From a virus, in IMG/VR virus record IMGVR_UViG_3300025426_000021, positions 1-64,000 of that record: 64,000 bases of DNA; one strand, given 5' to 3'. Below the pieces are notes generated by a model that was given only the letters and a program-made list of their open reading frames with translations, did no database searches and had not been told where the DNA came from. Of this stretch, positions 44,556-63,128 are shown in pieces. Each line of letters begins with the position of its first letter. The stretch's first letter is position 1. The translations under genes and the position numbers were made by a program.

Positions 44556-44930
44556 TTATTGTACAGACTTTAAATAATCACAATAAAAATTTTTACACAT
44601 ACTCGGTCTGATTTCATATACATTACAACATTTTAGAGTAGAGTTATAAAATATGCAAGGTTTTCTAACATGATTATAATCAACTCTTAACGCAGGATAA
44701 TGAGCCGGGTTTTGATAGTTAAATCTTTCCGGGAACATTTTAGATCCCTCTTCATAGTCTATAAACACATCTTTCCACTCTATTCTTATACCAGGATACT
44801 TCTCTTTCAGTCTTTGTAAAAACAGTACAGGGTCCGAAACTGGACCTATAATATAGTCTCTATCATCAATCTGACAGCAACCACCATGATTACCTGTTTG
44901 ACCTAGACATTTTTCGCAGCAATGATTCAT
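44556..44930 (-). CDS. YkgJ-type cysteine-cluster protein
   Basis: 124 aa. The N-terminus MNHCCEKCLGQTGNHGGCC holds a CCxxC...CC group and the C-terminus CNVYEIRPSMCKNFYC holds the 'C..Y..RP..C..F.C' signature of YkgJ/UPF0153-type zinc- or iron-binding proteins. These are often near methyltransferases or radical SAM enzymes; here the coupled gene is sulfotransferase-like paralogue 3 (stop/start overlap of four bases). Function unknown. Confidence 0.75.
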   Translation of the reverse strand: MNHCCEKCLGQTGNHGGCCQIDDRDYIIGPVSDPVLFLQRLKEKYPGIRIEWKDVFIDYEEGSKMFPERFNYQNPAHYPALRVDYNHVRKPCIFYNSTLKCCNVYEIRPSMCKNFYCDYLKSVQ

Positions 44931-45586
44931 TTTTTCCAGCTATCTCTTGAATAACCAAAAGGTTCAAACTGCCCTTTAAACTTTTCGTACACTATATCAG
45001 CTAGTCTTTGATTAAACCTATAATACGAGCGCCAATCAGCAAATCGGTCGTCTATGTTATCTCTACGTATGTCACCGCGTGGGTCATCTACACCTTCGTA
45101 TTTGTATTTGTTTTTTATTATGGTGTTGTCGTAACTAAACTTAACTTTAGGATCATTTAAGTCTAAAAATGGTATTTTTTTAACATCTTCTGCAAAGTTT
45201 TCATACCTAATAAAAAGGTAGGGTTTGTATGTTGCAGCTGGTTCTTCATAACTGTCCATTATACTTGAGTTTATTACATATTCTTCAAAATCACGCTCTA
45301 CTACTAGTTCGTCATTGTTTTTACGTTTAAAGTTATATAAATGCCAAAATGAAACTGCCCGAGAGTATGGGTTACGTATTTGCATTATTATTTTGTAGTC
45401 TTTATACTTTTCTGATACATCATAACCATGATTGTGAGCCACATTACGTATATCTGATTCAGGAGTAAGGGTGTTTGAAATATTATAGTTAAAAAAATCA
45501 TAATACTGCAGTACTTCGCTCAAAGCTCTACTCCCGCATCTTGGAGTTGCCCACCAAATATGCTGTACTGTTTCGGAGACGTTCAT
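44927..45586 (-). CDS. Sulfotransferase-like P-loop protein (paralogue 3, most canonical)
   Basis: 219 aa. IWWATPRCGSRALSEVL (residues ~10-26) is a good 5'-phosphosulfate loop (TPR-x-GS-R) and IIMQIRNPYSRAVSFWHLY the 3'-phosphate motif (R-x-P-x-S/RAVS). A mid-region LFIRYENFAEDVKKIPFL is typical of the fold. The end FEPFGYSRDSWKK matches the two other copies. Of the trio, this one is most likely active. The substrate may be a glycan, given neighbouring sugar genes, but that is inference. Confidence 0.75.
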   Translation of the reverse strand: MNVSETVQHIWWATPRCGSRALSEVLQYYDFFNYNISNTLTPESDIRNVAHNHGYDVSEKYKDYKIIMQIRNPYSRAVSFWHLYNFKRKNNDELVVERDFEEYVINSSIMDSYEEPAATYKPYLFIRYENFAEDVKKIPFLDLNDPKVKFSYDNTIIKNKYKYEGVDDPRGDIRRDNIDDRFADWRSYYRFNQRLADIVYEKFKGQFEPFGYSRDSWKK

Positions 45587-45642
45587 ATATAGACTTAGTA
45601 AAAAAACTTGTACTTCAAGGGCAATCCAGTAAGTAGTTAAAA

Positions 45643-46248
45643 ATGGAGCATTTTCAACACACTATTGCAGGTTGGTTTACATTTCCAGAACTATACAAAA
45701 TCGCCGCTCAATATGTGCCAGATGGAGGTCATGTAGTTGAAATAGGTGCTTTTTTAGGCAAATCAACATCCTTTATGGCAGTTGAACTGTTTAACTCGGG
45801 TAAACGAGTAAAATTTGATGTTATTGATACTTGGCAAGGCAGTCCAGAACACGTAGAAACGTTTAAAGATCTAGGCTACGAACCTGGAGATAAAAATATA
45901 CTTTACAAAGAATTTTTGCGCCATATGGAACCAGTAAGGCATATTATCAATCCATTGCGTACTGATTCAGTAACAGGTGGTAAACTTTACCCGGATGAGT
46001 CTTTAGATTTTGTTTTTATAGATGCGGGGCACGAATATGAAAATGTAAAAAACGATTTATTAACATGGTATCCTAAGGTAAAAAAAGGCGGGTTTATTGC
46101 TGGGCATGATTATTTTTTTCCGAGCGATCCAGAACACGGACATAAATACCCCGGAGTAAAAAAAGCTGTAGATGAGTTTTTTACAAATATAAAAGCAGAT
46201 GTTTTAATAAGTCCTGCAGAATATTGCTGGTTATACCAAGTGCGTTAA
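45643..46248 (+). CDS. Class I SAM-dependent methyltransferase (Methyltransf_24-like)
   Basis: 201 aa. VVEIGAFLGKSTSFMAVEL is motif I, FDVIDTWQGS is motif II with Asp, and LDFVFIDAGHEYENVKNDLLTWYPKVKKGGFIAGHDYF carries the family's DxxHxYexvxxD pattern and the 'GG...GHD' motif. Such enzymes act on small molecules or sugars (rhamnosyl O-methylation, for example). It stands alone on the plus strand amid minus genes, with a divergent sulfotransferase-like gene 56 bases upstream. Confidence 0.8.
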   Translation: MEHFQHTIAGWFTFPELYKIAAQYVPDGGHVVEIGAFLGKSTSFMAVELFNSGKRVKFDVIDTWQGSPEHVETFKDLGYEPGDKNILYKEFLRHMEPVRHIINPLRTDSVTGGKLYPDESLDFVFIDAGHEYENVKNDLLTWYPKVKKGGFIAGHDYFFPSDPEHGHKYPGVKKAVDEFFTNIKADVLISPAEYCWLYQVR

Positions 46249-49460: not shown

Positions 49461-50126
49461 TTATTTAGTGTTTCTTTCGGCGGAAGCAATAAAGTCGTAG
49501 AACTCTTTTCTAGTCTCAGGCTCGTTCATGAAATCCTTAGATAGTTTAGAAGTAATCATTACTGCACCGTGATGCTTTACACCTCTATGACAAGCACAAG
49601 TATGAGAGCATTTTACTACTACTGCAACACCTTGGTTCTTTTCACATATTTCGTCAATAGCTTTATGGATTTGAACTGTTAAAGCTTCCTGTACTTGTGG
49701 TCGACGAGCATAATGCTCTACAATACGATTTAGCTTTGATAGACCAATAACCCGTCCGTCTTTACTTGGGATATATGCAACGTGTGCTACACCAGTAAAA
49801 GCTAAATGGTGATGGCTACACATTGATACTAAAGGTATATTACACTGACTTACAATACCGTCATAACCATCTGAAGGGAATGAAGTAATCTTAGGCGGTT
49901 GATCGTAGCAACCTTTAATAAGATCACATACATAAGCCTTAGCTACACGCTTTGGTGTACCTTCACTATTAGGATCATTACGCCAGTCAATCTGTAAAGC
50001 ATCTAAGAAGCCTTCATAAGCTTTGGTAGCGTTAAGGATAATTTCTGTCTTTTCTTCTTCGGTACGAGGTATATTACTATTCGCAGTAGGAAGAGGTGGG
50101 TGTTTAACTCTTGATGTTGTTGCCAT
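49461..50126 (-). CDS. folE: GTP cyclohydrolase I (FolE)
   Basis: 221 aa from ATG 50126 (MATTSRVKHPPLP), after TTTAATATGG; an ATG at 50192 adds 22 residues but overlaps the upstream gene. Zinc ligands are Cys103 and His106 in VSMCSHHHLAFTG and Cys177 in CSHTCACHRGVKHHG. GTPKRVAKAY and RVIGLSKLNRIVEHYARRPQVQE are classic. It converts GTP to dihydroneopterin triphosphate, the entry to folate and to the 7-deazaguanine (queuosine/preQ0) pathway. With QueF and a DpdA-like gene in the same module, the second is likely. Confidence 0.93.
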   Translation of the reverse strand: MATTSRVKHPPLPTANSNIPRTEEEKTEIILNATKAYEGFLDALQIDWRNDPNSEGTPKRVAKAYVCDLIKGCYDQPPKITSFPSDGYDGIVSQCNIPLVSMCSHHHLAFTGVAHVAYIPSKDGRVIGLSKLNRIVEHYARRPQVQEALTVQIHKAIDEICEKNQGVAVVVKCSHTCACHRGVKHHGAVMITSKLSKDFMNEPETRKEFYDFIASAERNTK

Positions 50127-50145
50127 ATTAAATGATTTTACGGAC

Positions 50146-50475
50146 TTAAACTTTTCGCCCGTTGTATAACTCTGATTTGTTATTGATTCCATATTTTACT
50201 AAATAGCTTATTATAACCTCGATCGAGTCAGTTTTCAACTTAAATCGCTCAGGAATATATTGACCTCCGTCATATAACTCGAAGAAGGTTTCATTAAAAA
50301 GTTCCTTGTGATTGACATAACAGGTACAAAACACTGATGCATTACCCGGATCAATCATAACTGTCCAGGAACGTGGATCTGCTTCACCATATTGATCAAA
50401 GATCTTATAGACCATATAACCTGAGTCTTTAAGTCTTTTGATGAAATAACTTTGTGTTGTTATCTTATTAGCCAT
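50146..50475 (-). CDS. Hypothetical phage protein
   Basis: 109 aa, starting one base into the clamp gene stop. YFIKRLKDSGYMVYKIFDQYGEADPRSWTVMIDPG and a CTCYVN pair; likely a small alpha/beta fold. The C-terminus (ELYNGRKV) overlaps a longer alternative folE start. No family recognised. Confidence 0.6.
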   Translation of the reverse strand: MANKITTQSYFIKRLKDSGYMVYKIFDQYGEADPRSWTVMIDPGNASVFCTCYVNHKELFNETFFELYDGGQYIPERFKLKTDSIEVIISYLVKYGINNKSELYNGRKV

Positions 50476-57475: not shown

Positions 57476-58393
57476 TTATTGACGAGGAAACTTAAAATAA
57501 GGGTACTTTGAGTTTATTAAATGTTGATCTAATAGTTTTTTATCAGATGCACGAGTTGGCACGATGTCCCAGCCACCACGACGGGCATAAAAACAAGTTA
57601 CCATAAGTTCATCTGGTTCTAATAAGTCCCAAAGACGTTTATAAGCAGCTTCACAGATTTCTTCATGGAAATGACATTCATTACGGAATGATACGATCCA
57701 TTCTAGTAAAGATTGTTCAGTTACTTCTTTATCGCTTTTATAGTAGATAAAGATATCACCTGAATCTGGTTGCTTTGTAATCTTACAGTTAGAACGTAAT
57801 AGAGTGCTCATATAGAAGTGCTTTTTATTCACTTCAGATTCATTAGCTACTAACAAATCAGCTGATTCGTTGAATATTGTAAACTTAATACTTTCTGCGC
57901 TCTTAATACTTTCTAACGGTAACCAGATACCAGGATCATAATCTCTTAACCAAACTTCACGAGCAGCAAAGTCTTTTATTTGTACTTGTGGAAATAGATC
58001 AACTTCTACATCTGTCTCTAATAGTTTAGATAGGTCTTCTGAAGCAGTCTTTTTAATATTGTTTAATGCTTCTGCTACAGTCTTACCCATAGGCTGCATA
58101 TTAAATGAGTTCCAGTAGAGCTTCATTGACTTAGACTCTACAATATAAGGGTTAGTAGCTGGATACACTACTTTAGCAACACAGGTAACAGGTAAACCGT
58201 TATTTGTTAATGCACTACATTCATAACCGTTCCAGATATCGTAACCTACGAATGGTAAGGAATCGTTCTGTAAACCTAAGTAGGTACGATTGCGTTGACG
58301 TTCTTCACGCACTAAGATCTCAGGCGTGTAGGTGGTAGGAGAATCAACTCTCTGACCAAGTACTTTGTCAATATTATTAGTATTATAGCTCAT
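57476..58393 (-). CDS. queF: preQ0 reductase QueF (two-domain, NADPH-dependent)
   Basis: 305 aa (E. coli QueF 282 aa). The QueF signature ESKSMKLYW (86-94) lies in the N-terminal domain and separates true reductases from the amidinotransferase QueF-L. The catalytic half has SNC203KITKQPDSGD with the nucleophile Cys and Asp, and FHEE (His243/Glu244), ending CFYARRGGWDIVP. It reduces preQ0 to preQ1. In phages this supports 7-deazaguanine DNA modification. The start overlaps the kinase-like gene by 11 bases. Neighbouring DpdA- and formyltransferase-like genes share the transcription unit. Confidence 0.92.
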   Translation of the reverse strand: MSYNTNNIDKVLGQRVDSPTTYTPEILVREERQRNRTYLGLQNDSLPFVGYDIWNGYECSALTNNGLPVTCVAKVVYPATNPYIVESKSMKLYWNSFNMQPMGKTVAEALNNIKKTASEDLSKLLETDVEVDLFPQVQIKDFAAREVWLRDYDPGIWLPLESIKSAESIKFTIFNESADLLVANESEVNKKHFYMSTLLRSNCKITKQPDSGDIFIYYKSDKEVTEQSLLEWIVSFRNECHFHEEICEAAYKRLWDLLEPDELMVTCFYARRGGWDIVPTRASDKKLLDQHLINSKYPYFKFPRQ

Positions 58394-58958
58394 TGGTAAA
58401 ATCTTTCTTTAAGTTATCAGTTACAATCTTAACTCTATCTTCTACAGAACCCATTACATAAACAAGTTTATCTGTAGGCATTGAATGGTGTTTTAGATAA
58501 AAGTCAAACTGCTTAACAACACCATCAAAAAACTCCTTACCTGTACTTCTCTCACCATCATCTTTTACTTCAAGTTCAGGTACAACATAAAAAATCTTAT
58601 CATATACTTTTAGCAGTTCTTCATAAACAGCTAAAGCAGCTTGATACACATCTTTACTAACTTGACCTTTTTCATAAAAGTAAGTCGTGTAAGCAATACC
58701 ATCTAAAGCACCTCTATCTAATATCCAGTTACCCGGAGTTAAACCGTACTCTAAATGTCTAGCCATTATCAAATACTGAGTTAAAGAAGTACCGCCTTCA
58801 TTAATAGGTACATTTAAATCTTTAAGACCTCTCGTTAGATTAGTTCTAAAACTAAAATGCTGATCGTCTAAAAACAGATCATCTTTTAGTGCTTTTACTA
58901 ACGTTGTCTTACCTTGTGAATGAGCGCCACAGATTGCAGCTTTATAGTTTGATCTCAT
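58383..58958 (-). CDS. P-loop kinase-like protein (AAA_28/NadR-type)
   Basis: 191 aa. Walker A is AAICGAHSQGKTTLVKAL, and GNWILDRGALDGIAYTTYFYE provides a Walker-B/DxxD-type segment. KIFYVVPELEVKDDGERSTGKEF resembles the lid region of nucleoside kinase folds. It could phosphorylate a nucleotide, or a modified one given its position between queF and a formyltransferase, but no substrate motif is diagnostic. Coupled to both neighbours. Confidence 0.7.
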   Translation of the reverse strand: MRSNYKAAICGAHSQGKTTLVKALKDDLFLDDQHFSFRTNLTRGLKDLNVPINEGGTSLTQYLIMARHLEYGLTPGNWILDRGALDGIAYTTYFYEKGQVSKDVYQAALAVYEELLKVYDKIFYVVPELEVKDDGERSTGKEFFDGVVKQFDFYLKHHSMPTDKLVYVMGSVEDRVKIVTDNLKKDFTNEL

Positions 58959-58961
58959 AAG

Positions 58962-59540
58962 TTATTTATTTAATAGGCTTTTGCGCATAAAGCCAACCCA
59001 ATTTTCGATTGCCAGTTTATGCAGTCTTCCAATATAATCGTCTAAGCTATCAAATTCATTGTAGATATTCTTGCTATAAAACTCTTTCTCAGACACTACT
59101 TTACCAGCATCTACTTCAGGTATAACTTCATGTATAACGTGTCCGTGCTGATAGTAAGGTCTTTCGGCGTGACTGAACCACACTTTAGCCTGAGGATCTT
59201 TACCTTTTAACTCAGGAAACTTAGTTATAAGACCTGGATGTCCGTTGTATATCTTGAATCTACCGCAGATCTGTGGCGGTAGTATACGAAGATAACCGTG
59301 AAGAGTAATAATATCGGTATGCTTAATAGCCTCTCTATATTCTTCTACTGTTGGTTTCTTAGGTAAAAATATAAAACGATCAAAACATTTTTCTAGAAGA
59401 TTAGGATTGATTTTGTCCATATCTTCAAAGCTTTTATTAGTTATGATTGCATCTGGAAACCTACCGATATGCTTAGATATCTCATATATCTCAGATCCAC
59501 TCTGAGAGAAAAAGGTTTTCCAGATTAAGGTACGTTTCAT
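58962..59540 (-). CDS. dpdN: PurN-like formyltransferase, candidate dPreQ1 formyltransferase (DpdN)
   Basis: 192 aa, PurN length. The fold's catalytic trio is visible: N99 and H101 in FKIYNGHPGLITKFPELKGKDPQ, D144 in HEVIPEVDAGKVV. LHGYLRILPP is the 10-formyl-THF-side motif. PurN makes purines in hosts, but here it sits between a DpdA-like gene and queF. A dPreQ1 formyltransferase (DpdN) has been predicted for phages with 7-(formylamino)methyl-7-deazaguanine. That role fits and is inferred. Plain purine synthesis is the alternative, yet no other purine gene is near. The start overlaps the 76-aa gene by four bases. Confidence 0.75.
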   Translation of the reverse strand: MKRTLIWKTFFSQSGSEIYEISKHIGRFPDAIITNKSFEDMDKINPNLLEKCFDRFIFLPKKPTVEEYREAIKHTDIITLHGYLRILPPQICGRFKIYNGHPGLITKFPELKGKDPQAKVWFSHAERPYYQHGHVIHEVIPEVDAGKVVSEKEFYSKNIYNEFDSLDDYIGRLHKLAIENWVGFMRKSLLNK

Positions 59541-59767
59541 ATGTTTAGTCGATACCCTATTGTATTATCACTAAAGAAAATTACAAGTGTAAAGTCAACA
59601 ATACCGTGTTTTATTAGGTAAGGTTTAACATCTGCAAGCTCTTTTACCGGGAGTTCATGATTACGAATACAATCCCAGAAAGAATAATCGCGGATATAAA
59701 CAGAATCGGCCAGTAAGTGAGGATAGTTTGCATGTACAGAATTAGTTATAGCTTCTAAAGTTGTCAT
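59537..59767 (-). CDS. Small unknown protein between dpdA- and dpdN-like genes
   Basis: 76 aa. MTTLEAITNSVHANYPHLLADSVYIRDYSFWDCIRNHE and VDFTLVIFFSDNTIGYRLNI suggest a small alpha/beta fold. It overlaps both neighbours by four bases, so its expression is tied to them. Function unknown; guilt by association with base modification. Confidence 0.6.
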   Translation of the reverse strand: MTTLEAITNSVHANYPHLLADSVYIRDYSFWDCIRNHELPVKELADVKPYLIKHGIVDFTLVIFFSDNTIGYRLNI

Positions 59768-60570
59768 CCATTAACATAGTTTCTAAACTGAATCAGATTG
59801 CTTGCAATGATTCTTTCTTGTATTTCATCTGGTACTACATCTAAAAGATCTACAAGTTTGGTAGATTCTTTCTTCCAGTTACCAATAACATCAGAATATC
59901 TTACTCTTTTAATACCATGTACAATAGGAGAAGAAGTATCTAGTGTTTCGATCCAGTTATATTCAGGTCCTTGATAGAAACTAAACTCTCTTGGGTGTGC
60001 ACAACCTAATAAATGATGAGGTTTATCTTTATTAATGATACCGTCATTCATTAACTGAGTTAAAGTTATTACTCTACCCATCATATAAGATACCCACTTG
60101 TTAGGATGAGGAAATGCTTTAAGGTAATAAGAATAGTCAAATGAAATAGCTAGTTTATCTACGCCGATCTCTTGATCTAGTGCTACATAACACTTAACTA
60201 GTTCACCGTAAGTCTTTCCTTGCACAACACCAATAGTTTTAGAGCTACTAACAAAGTCCCAATCTTTCCATAAGCACTTCTTAGCTGAATCAATAGTACC
60301 TTGACAATCTTCTAACACGTCTGGTATAATATATTCTGTAGGGTTAAGCTTTTGTATCCAGTGAGCATAACGTTTAGAGTCAAAAGAGGTACCTAACTCA
60401 AATATAGAGTTATCTAATAAAACATGCCTACCACCTTTAACACTGTCTTCAAAGAACTTGTAGTATTGCGGGTGAGTTTCAAAGAGGTGCACGAGTGCAT
60501 AGCAGTAATCGTTGTATGTACGAGATATCTCGAGCATACTTAAGGGAGATTCGTGTGATATTTTAATCAT
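59764..60570 (-). CDS. dpdA: DpdA-like guanine transglycosylase (7-deazaguanine DNA modification)
   Basis: 268 aa, in the range of short phage DpdA proteins. TGT-superfamily features: LLDNSIFELG with the likely catalytic Asp53, YIIPDVLEDCQGTID (Asp84, Asp88), IGVVQGKTYGEL (base-binding loop), LAISFDYSYYL and HHLLGCAHPREF. DpdA exchanges guanine in DNA for a 7-deazaguanine base. The usual four-Cys/His zinc site of tRNA TGT is not evident. It directly follows DNA polymerase (ATGA overlap) and precedes the formyltransferase. Confidence 0.8.
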   Translation of the reverse strand: MIKISHESPLSMLEISRTYNDYCYALVHLFETHPQYYKFFEDSVKGGRHVLLDNSIFELGTSFDSKRYAHWIQKLNPTEYIIPDVLEDCQGTIDSAKKCLWKDWDFVSSSKTIGVVQGKTYGELVKCYVALDQEIGVDKLAISFDYSYYLKAFPHPNKWVSYMMGRVITLTQLMNDGIINKDKPHHLLGCAHPREFSFYQGPEYNWIETLDTSSPIVHGIKRVRYSDVIGNWKKESTKLVDLLDVVPDEIQERIIASNLIQFRNYVNG

Positions 60571-63128
60571 GAGAATATGTCAAATAAGTCTGTTGTTACT
60601 TCGTTAGTTAAATCTGGTAAACGCCATCCAATAGCTTCATATACAGCTAATATCGGCGGTTTAATTATTGTATCGAACATTTCAATATAGTCTACTTGAA
60701 ATTCATTAAATTCTGGTGGAAAGTTGTAAGGGTAACAAAGAGTATCGATATTATACTTGTTTGGTGCAATATAAATCTTCTTTACTTTGCCACCGGAAGT
60801 AATTCGTTCATACTTTGTTTCCAAATGTAAATGTTTTAGTAGTTGGTTATACCATAATGCACCTTTAACGTGATTAGGTGTGCCGGTACCTATCTTAAAG
60901 CCATCTGCTTTTACTTCGTACTTCTCTAAATCACTAAGACCGCCACGGATAGCTATTTCATCAACATTTAACTTTTTAAATGCATCGTAAACCTCTTTAT
61001 AAAGACTGTTTGCCTTTATTTGATCCTGACCTAACAAAGAGTTCTCAATAACCTTCTTAATCAGTTCTTTTGCTTTCTTTGGCGTTGTAGACCTAGCGAT
61101 TTCAACCCCAACGTACTTAAACTTACTAACATTTGCACCTTCATCGTTTAATACATGAATAATATAACGTTTCTTTTGCAGGTAAACACCTACATCACAA
61201 ATCGACTCCCGTTTAAAGAAGTAACGAGGATCGATAGACTTAAACTCAGAAGCAGACCACTTTTTAATCTCACTATTTAAGTATGTACCAATCTCTTTGT
61301 CTATTAAATCTATACCTTCTGGTGTTACTTTACCGTCTTTAAATATGTTAAGCTTAATTTTATCAAGGATAGGTCTAATAGTAATATGAGTACTATCAGT
61401 ATCACCGTAAATGTTAAGGGACGTATTAACCCCGTATTTGTCTTTAGCGTATTTATCAAGGATGATACCCGCCTGCTTAACCACTGACTGACCAGTAAGA
61501 GTAATACTACCGGCGTGATCACTATCGCAAATAGGGCTAAACTTATTAGCAAAAACACCATAAATAGAATTAAGAAGAATTTTAATAACGTGCTGGATGG
61601 TGTCAGCTCGTTCCATATTAAACTTACACGTTTTGTACTCATCTGTATCTGGGGGTAAATTACTTAGTTGTTTTTTGTATTCAATGTATTGGTTCTTATT
61701 TCTTACACGTTCACTATAAAGACCATCAATCAATGAAGGCACAACGCCTTTTTTCTTTTGAGTATATAAAACATTAGCTTTAGATATAGCTAACTTTTCT
61801 ATCTCCATAAACTTTTCAAGTTTATCGAGTGGTACCGTCTTTTCTGCACCACTAGCTAATAATAACGTTGCTTCTGTATCTGTCTTGCGTACGATTTTGC
61901 CTATTTTAGTTTCTGGTGATATATTGAGAGTAATAATGGTGTTAGGGTATAGAGAGTTAGCGTCATAACTCACAATAGCAGTCTTTAAACCGCGTTCAGG
62001 ATCTCTAACGTACCCACCTTCGATTTCATCTCTAGTAGGACCAGACACAAACGTTGGTATAACCAAACCGTGCTTGTATGCTTCTAAAGCAACACAACCG
62101 GTAACAATTTGAACTTTACCTAAAGCAGCTTCAAAGCTAGTTAAACCTTTGTAAGCTAACATACGTATGATCTTAAAAAACTGTAGTTTCTTTTCCATTC
62201 GTACTAACAGATCAACGTCTTGAATATTATAGTCTACAAAGTTTTTCCAATCGCTACCGGCTAAAGCGGCTAGGTTAGTAGCGTTAATAGCTAGTTTACC
62301 TTCACCTAGTTCATGTTGTGCTACAAAGTTTAGTGCATATGACTCTAATAAACCACGTGCAAAGCCTTTATACACTTCCATGTAGTCCATAGCTGATATA
62401 CCGTGAATGTACCAACGATCTAGCTCTTGACCTTTAACAAAGATACCTTTACGACACCAAAGACTTTTTAATGGAGATAAACGCTTTGCAGCATCTTCAC
62501 CTAATAAGTTATTGATACGATTAATAGTATAAGGAAAGTCGAAAAAGTCCGTGTTCCACCCGCTAAGAATATCTGGGTAATAATCGTTTTCCCAGAACTC
62601 TAGAAACTTATTAAGCAAATCCACCTCACTACGACACTCTGTATATACAACATTGTCGCGTGTTGGTGTATAAGGTTTTTCACCCCAAGTATAAAACGTA
62701 TCAGATAAGTTGTCATATATGGTTATAAGGTTAATAGGGTGCTTTGCATCCTTAGCTTCAGGAAACTCATCTGGCGAGTAAACTTCGATATCAAGAAAGC
62801 AAACCTTTAACGGGTTAGCAGAAAACTCAGGTTTTTCGTAGTCATCTTTATACTTTTCGATAAGAAACTGTTGCTCTACCTGAATATTGTGATATAAACG
62901 TTTAATAGCACCATCTTGTGCAGACTTATTACGTTCATACGAGTTCTTAAATACCTTCTTCTTTAACTTAGTGTTAAAAATAGATATAGCATCGTGATTG
63001 TCCTGATTAGTCTCTACATAAAAGTAAGGACTATACAGTTCTTTCTTAACAACCCGTTTACCGTTTTTGTCCCAGGTAAATAGGTATGCAGAAGATTCTC
63101 TTGAGTTATAATATACGTTACGATACAC
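60567..63128 (-). CDS. gp43: DNA polymerase, family B (T4 gp43-like)
   Basis: 853 aa (T4 898 aa), GTG start at 63128. Exonuclease motif I is CFLDIEVY (D113, E115), II in SGWNTDFFDFPYTINRI, III YNIQDVDLL. Polymerase motifs are A SYDANSLYPN, B KILLNSIYGVF and C YGDTDSTH, so both activities look intact. It replicates the phage genome, and in this module its tail overlaps the DpdA-like gene, implying coordinated expression of synthesis and modification. Confidence 0.96.
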   Translation of the reverse strand: MYRNVYYNSRESSAYLFTWDKNGKRVVKKELYSPYFYVETNQDNHDAISIFNTKLKKKVFKNSYERNKSAQDGAIKRLYHNIQVEQQFLIEKYKDDYEKPEFSANPLKVCFLDIEVYSPDEFPEAKDAKHPINLITIYDNLSDTFYTWGEKPYTPTRDNVVYTECRSEVDLLNKFLEFWENDYYPDILSGWNTDFFDFPYTINRINNLLGEDAAKRLSPLKSLWCRKGIFVKGQELDRWYIHGISAMDYMEVYKGFARGLLESYALNFVAQHELGEGKLAINATNLAALAGSDWKNFVDYNIQDVDLLVRMEKKLQFFKIIRMLAYKGLTSFEAALGKVQIVTGCVALEAYKHGLVIPTFVSGPTRDEIEGGYVRDPERGLKTAIVSYDANSLYPNTIITLNISPETKIGKIVRKTDTEATLLLASGAEKTVPLDKLEKFMEIEKLAISKANVLYTQKKKGVVPSLIDGLYSERVRNKNQYIEYKKQLSNLPPDTDEYKTCKFNMERADTIQHVIKILLNSIYGVFANKFSPICDSDHAGSITLTGQSVVKQAGIILDKYAKDKYGVNTSLNIYGDTDSTHITIRPILDKIKLNIFKDGKVTPEGIDLIDKEIGTYLNSEIKKWSASEFKSIDPRYFFKRESICDVGVYLQKKRYIIHVLNDEGANVSKFKYVGVEIARSTTPKKAKELIKKVIENSLLGQDQIKANSLYKEVYDAFKKLNVDEIAIRGGLSDLEKYEVKADGFKIGTGTPNHVKGALWYNQLLKHLHLETKYERITSGGKVKKIYIAPNKYNIDTLCYPYNFPPEFNEFQVDYIEMFDTIIKPPILAVYEAIGWRLPDLTNEVTTDLFDIFS

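Follow-up and report, generated by a model that had tools for sequence, protein, structure and literature searches.

A probable 7-deazaguanine DNA-hypermodification operon pairing a DpdA3-type transglycosylase with a P-loop kinase in an uncultivated phage

Which modified base would be made by a phage operon that begins in the stop of a DNA polymerase gene, and would guanine be exchanged in the finished DNA or already on the free nucleotide? The question is raised by five genes on the minus strand (57476-60570) of the window, as we call the whole 64,000-base stretch that was analysed, which covers positions 1-64000 of a virus record 84,228 bases long and leaves about 20 kb of it beyond. The record is an uncultivated contig, and the virus is known here from its sequence. 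A preliminary description had proposed a module containing QueF and a DpdA-like transglycosylase; both were recovered, and the coordinates and direction of the genes were confirmed, but a PurN-like formyltransferase and a P-loop kinase belonging to the same operon had been missed. We consider it likely that this operon serves a tailed phage for DNA hypermodification: preQ1 would be made, guanine would be swapped by DpdA3 and the product would be formylated by the PurN-like enzyme. The operon and the related genes of the record, with their family matches in brackets, are as follows.

60567-63128, minus strand: family-B DNA polymerase (PF00136, 1.4e-22; PF03104, 1.6e-18), its stop overlapping the transglycosylase start
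59764-60570, minus strand: DpdA (DpdA3-type) guanine transglycosylase, 268 amino acids (phrog_19058, 5.5e-51; model and structure matches)
59537-59767, minus strand: 76-amino-acid protein with no assigned function, which close relatives also have between DpdA and the formyltransferase
58962-59540, minus strand: PurN-like formyltransferase, a probable dPreQ1/preQ1 formyltransferase, DpdN-like (PF00551, 4e-7)
58383-58958, minus strand: P-loop kinase of the deoxynucleoside kinase / thymidylate kinase / NadR-RNK type (PF13521, 4.6e-10; phrog_2107, 3e-21)
57476-58393, minus strand: QueF, two-domain nitrile reductase (PF14819, 1.1e-28; PF14489, 8.4e-18)
49461-50192, minus strand: FolE, GTP cyclohydrolase I (PF01227, 7.3e-48; NCBIfam FolE, 3.5e-46)
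77706-78170 of the record, beyond the window: QueD (PF01242, 1e-16)
78193-78999 of the record, beyond the window: QueE (Fer4_12, 5.9e-4; NCBIfam QueE, 4.8e-14, below cut-off)
83161-83883 of the record, beyond the window: QueC (PF06508, 2.4e-62)

The transglycosylase gene starts within the polymerase stop through a 4-base overlap, as had been described, and overlaps of the same length join it to the gene for the 76-residue protein and the latter to the formyltransferase gene, while kinase and QueF genes overlap by 11 bases. The claim of four- to eleven-base overlaps throughout thus stood for four junctions (4, 4, 4 and 11 bases) but not for the one between formyltransferase and kinase, where a 3-base gap was found. 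Chance was excluded as the origin of this order because the same order recurs in many virus contigs. The 76-residue protein gave no family match in Pfam or PHROG searches and has homologues in 6 of 63 DpdA clusters.

Searches of Pfam and NCBIfam were not enough to place the transglycosylase, so that a structure model was needed: its match to the Pfam TGT family (E 0.12) was below threshold, no NCBIfam match was obtained, and phrog_19058 is an unnamed family. The AlphaFold model, made with an alignment of 40 diverse relatives, had a pLDDT of 94.6 and, when compared with the PDB using Foldseek, all 50 of the matches listed were tRNA-guanine transglycosylases (best E 2.0e-8, probability 1.00). 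The model therefore places the protein in the TGT superfamily despite the Pfam value, and the structural comparison that had been named beforehand as a possible refutation of this membership came out in its favour. When the DpdA alignment was used as a profile against PDB sequences, matches stayed at chance level (DNA-guanine transglycosylase 7ui4, E 0.41), and hhalign aligned the protein to E. coli Tgt with an E of 1.5e-4. In this profile alignment VVQGKTYGEL was paired with GIIQGSVYEDL, HLLGCAHPREF with YLMGVGKPEDL and D211 with the nucleophile D264, whereas LDNSIFE corresponds to TDSGGFQ of Tgt, and D53 to D89, by motif only. D53, D84, Q117, R166, H186 and D211 were invariant in the 40-sequence alignment, and the two aspartates and the (I/V)QG loop of the superfamily are thus present (D53, Q117, D211); we propose D53 (in DNS) and D211 (in DTS) as the catalytic aspartates.

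The C-terminal zinc site of tRNA transglycosylases (CxCxxC) was found in none of the 63 DpdA representatives, nor in the DpdA of phage 9g, showing that the window protein is not a tRNA transglycosylase and that the zinc site does not define phage DpdA. The isoelectric point did not separate DpdA3 from DpdA1. The nearest named relative of the transglycosylase is a protein annotated 'DNA guanine transglycosylase' in Flavobacterium phage immuto (49% identity), followed by the DpdA of Campylobacter phages of the CP220 type (43-45%), identity to the two kinds together being 43-50% over the full length. The CP220 and immuto proteins reportedly belong to the DpdA3 subfamily of Cui et al. 2023.

For the synthesis of the base, the preliminary description had reported a QueF signature and preQ1 formation, and this was borne out: the QueF_N and QueF domains both scored over cut-off, and the ESKSMKLYW motif (from residue 86), the nucleophilic C203, its partner D210 and FHEE at 242-245 (HE motif H243-E244) were located. 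The match to the NCBIfam equivalog TIGR03138 (1.3e-65) is nevertheless below that model's cut-off. FolE, which had been noted nearby, was likewise confirmed. No QueD, QueE or QueC was detected among the window ORFs scanned, in line with the preliminary description, but the incompleteness deduced from this was an effect of the window, because the search it had suggested in the rest of the genome found all three elsewhere in the record, QueE being the weakest by family score. The presence of FolE, QueD, QueE, QueC and QueF in one record indicates a complete route from GTP to preQ1.

The nature of the end product depends on the formyltransferase. It aligned with E. coli PurN (hhalign E 6e-12), N106, H108 and D144 of PurN being matched by N99, H101 and D144, and this triad was invariant in all 32 cluster representatives. 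An intact triad in a PurN-type enzyme encoded inside the operon suggests that the end product is probably formylaminomethyl-7-deazaguanine (fdPreQ1) and not preQ1 itself. Cui et al. 2023 reportedly found fdPreQ1 and also predicted an enzyme, DpdN, that formylates dPreQ1. Within the phage collection, immuto phages alone encode the enzyme, again at this position, and among DpdA cluster representatives it almost always accompanies QueF. Its loop FSQ(T/S)GSEI aligns to the PurN loop LISGNGSNL, which binds the substrate phosphate, and this hints at a phosphorylated substrate.

The formyltransferase could also act on another amine, in which case the product would be unformylated dPreQ1, or dG+. Such an outcome would agree with the dPreQ1 that QueF-type enzymes yield in Dp-1 and HVTV-1 (PMC6884629) and with several cluster representatives that have DpdA, kinase and QueF without the formyltransferase; for dG+, a stand-alone glutamine amidotransferase lies directly after QueC in close relatives, so that there may be a branch to G+. 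We nevertheless hold this outcome to be unlikely in view of the position of the formyltransferase within the operon, its conserved triad and its nearly constant association with QueF.

According to the formylated reading, preQ0 would be made by FolE, QueD, QueE and QueC and reduced to preQ1 by QueF. DpdA3 would then exchange guanine by a TGT mechanism, with Asp211 attacking the sugar and Asp53 serving as acid/base, and the PurN-like enzyme would add a formyl group from 10-formyl-THF to the aminomethyl group. The predicted product, 2'-deoxy-7-(formylamino)methyl-7-deazaguanine, may replace much or all of the dG, and DNA modified in this way would block restriction enzymes that read the N7 of guanine. 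By analogy with phages in which 7-deazaguanines protect the DNA from restriction, DpdA being essential for them in CAjan (PMC6884629), the altered guanine probably hides the phage DNA from bacterial restriction enzymes.

The neighbourhoods of related genes were surveyed at 289 DpdA loci obtained from contig scans and isolates, which formed 63 clusters at 80% identity. Neighbours were counted in the 55 clusters whose DpdA gene had 1.5 kb or more on either side, and also in 35 clusters with long flanks; an alignment built from every DpdA3 subtype diverged too much to be used in scanning, and a Bacillus-type scan gave no matches. On the same strand and within 3 kb of DpdA, the kinase was present in 51 of the 55 clusters, as compared with QueF in 36, the formyltransferase in 31, FolE in 26 and a PRA-PH hydrolase in 16. 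Most loci shared the window's arrangement of kinase and QueF. No more than 22 of the 55 clusters, a minority, had a matched polymerase within 3 kb, so that the coupling to DNA polymerase that had been proposed holds as genomic adjacency in the window but is not general among its relatives.

The P-loop kinase is therefore the most constant partner of DpdA3, above QueF and the formyltransferase. It was found within 3 kb in 32 of the 35 long-flank clusters and at 3-6 kb in none of them, and it was kept in 14 of the 18 clusters without QueF and formyltransferase nearby. In three of the four clusters without an adjacent kinase, a close homologue occurred elsewhere in the contig or MAG. On the DpdA tree, whose deep branches are weak, the kinase spans the whole while QueF and formyltransferase come and go. 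Strong matches to the kinase (E <=4e-15) were found in 18 of 50,697 phage records (4 immuto and 14 Campylobacter), the accessions being identical to those of the 18 best matches to DpdA. Three different types of P-loop kinase stand beside DpdA3: AAA_28, AAA_18/33 (phiST, MA9V-3 and relatives) and another in BSP7/Youna2. No kinase of this kind was seen beside five DpdA1 loci of the phage 9g type or anywhere in 9g, CAjan, Dp-1 and HVTV-1, and nt-1 gave only a distant NadR-like match, these controls on the DpdA1 side being few and not all independent.

The P-loop of the window kinase is accompanied by a conserved DR motif and by a DDGxRS segment. The best structural matches of the kinase model (pLDDT 90.4) include deoxyadenosine, thymidylate and NadR / nicotinamide riboside kinases, suggesting that it phosphorylates a nucleoside or a nucleotide, although the fold does not tell the one from the other.

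The constancy of the kinase raises the possibility that DpdA3 swaps guanine on dGMP or deoxyguanosine, that the kinase carries the product to the triphosphate while a PRA-PH, MazG or HD hydrolase drains dGTP, and that the polymerase copies the modified dNTP. A constant kinase and a hydrolase near DpdA in 19 of the 55 clusters (PRA-PH 16, MazG 2, HD 1; for example PRA-PH in immuto, MazG in phiST and HD in CP220) resemble the T4 and dZ systems, so that exchange on dGMP before replication is possible. Such a route would explain the constant kinase, the frequent pyrophosphohydrolase and the complete replacement of dG reported for CP220 (100% of G; PMC8306585) as against about 30% in DpdA1 phages (PMC6884629). 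The three types of kinase, its retention without QueF and formyltransferase and its absence from the DpdA1 controls also speak for the route, and a modified-dGTP route was once proposed for Campylobacter phages (PMC6884629). Published opinion nonetheless favours exchange in DNA, the later papers describing modification at that level (PMC12783734, PMC12707154). MazG, PRA-PH and HD hydrolases were sought in the record of the window and in near relatives and were not found, so that the dGTP-sink part fails for this lineage, and a kinase fold that fits nucleoside and nucleotide kinases alike does not favour the route either. In addition, Crippen 2019 reportedly did not detect phosphates of dADG in infected cells, and Cui 2023 is said to have concluded that insertion is post-replicative. 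We regard exchange at the nucleotide level as conceivable but rather doubtful.

A somewhat better case, still short of even, can be made for exchange in DNA after replication, with a kinase that would serve only guanine salvage or nucleotide supply, for instance as a (d)GMP kinase recycling the released guanine. For other DpdA families it is accepted that guanine is exchanged in the DNA itself (PMC6884629), and the phosphoribosyltransferase found near FolE in immuto would suit salvage. Salvage would leave unexplained, however, why kinases of three different types occupy the place next to DpdA3, also in loci that have neither QueF nor formyltransferase.

These results document a complete guanine-replacement operon, probably for formyl-preQ1, in an uncultivated lineage of phages that has many relatives. 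The nearly universal pairing of DpdA3 with a kinase offers a testable answer to why some phages replace all guanine and others about one third, namely exchange before or after replication, and is, if new, the part worth following. If exchange before replication is true, DpdA3 would be a free-nucleotide transglycosylase acting on dGMP or dG and providing 7-deaza-dGTPs for the phage polymerase, and total replacement of guanine would be explained.

Among known systems, Flavobacterium phage vB_FspM_immuto_2-6A (NC_055915) carries these five genes in an identical order, and the window operon therefore adds to the known immuto type; identity to the window proteins is 49% for DpdA, 43% for the formyltransferase, 42% for QueF and 36% for the kinase. 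Immuto differs in its neighbourhood, which contains DNA polymerase A and a PRA-PH hydrolase as well as FolE, QueD and QueE just upstream, whereas the window has polymerase B directly upstream and QueD, QueE and QueC far away. Campylobacter phages CP220 and CPt10 share a homologous DpdA followed directly by a homologous kinase, but they carry no QueF or formyltransferase beside DpdA, have an HD-domain protein upstream and yield dADG. Enterobacteria phage 9g and CAjan (DpdA1) also have a TGT-superfamily transglycosylase near a replication polymerase and genes of the preQ0 pathway; their DpdA belongs to another subfamily, without an adjacent kinase, and replacement is partial (about 30% of G in CAjan). 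Finally, the hydroxymethyl-dCTP system of T4 and the dZ/PurZ system resemble DpdA3 loci, by analogy and not by homology, in a dedicated kinase beside the base-changing enzyme and sometimes a dNTP hydrolase. In T4 (hmC) and dZ phages replacement takes place at the nucleotide level, before replication; in DpdA3 loci, unlike these, the base-changing enzyme is a transglycosylase.

The 76-aa protein of the 7-deazaguanine operon (window 59537-59767) was kept between DpdA and the formyltransferase in 6 clusters of the window's lineage, and showed no match to a known family. Distant homologues of the transglycosylase, DpdA3, were found in Bacillus phage BSP7 (L061), Weizmannia phage Youna2 (L062), Cellulophaga phage phiST (L065) and Chryseobacterium phage MA9V-3 (L064), where they are entered in the database as "hypothetical proteins" and each lies immediately after a small P-loop protein. 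DpdA3 homologues were also carried by bacterial MAG contigs L296, L298, L299 and L300 (Spirochaetia, Rhodobacteraceae, Winogradskyella and Clostridia bins), which are probably phage contigs inside these bins.

Further genes were localised beyond the window, on parts L005 and L006 of the record:

Record 79428-80147 (L005:16429-17148), second kinase-like gene of the AAA_28 type, lying downstream of QueD/QueE and encoding 239 aa
Record 83885-84226 (L006:3886-4227), stand-alone class-II glutamine amidotransferase, cut off by the record end

Record 80807-81262 (L005:17808-18263) encoded a TnsA-like endonuclease-domain protein (PF08722, 2.6e-17), and a sulfotransferase-like gene (PF00685, 1.7e-6) adjoined an opposite-strand methyltransferase gene (PF13578, 9.7e-18) at window 44927-46248.

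In this virus lineage the amidotransferase directly follows QueC, and the gene is complete in relatives L325-L327 (about 218 aa, starting with MCGIAG). It could supply ammonia to QueC, or represent a split version of the phage Gat-QueC, which in phage 9g makes G+.
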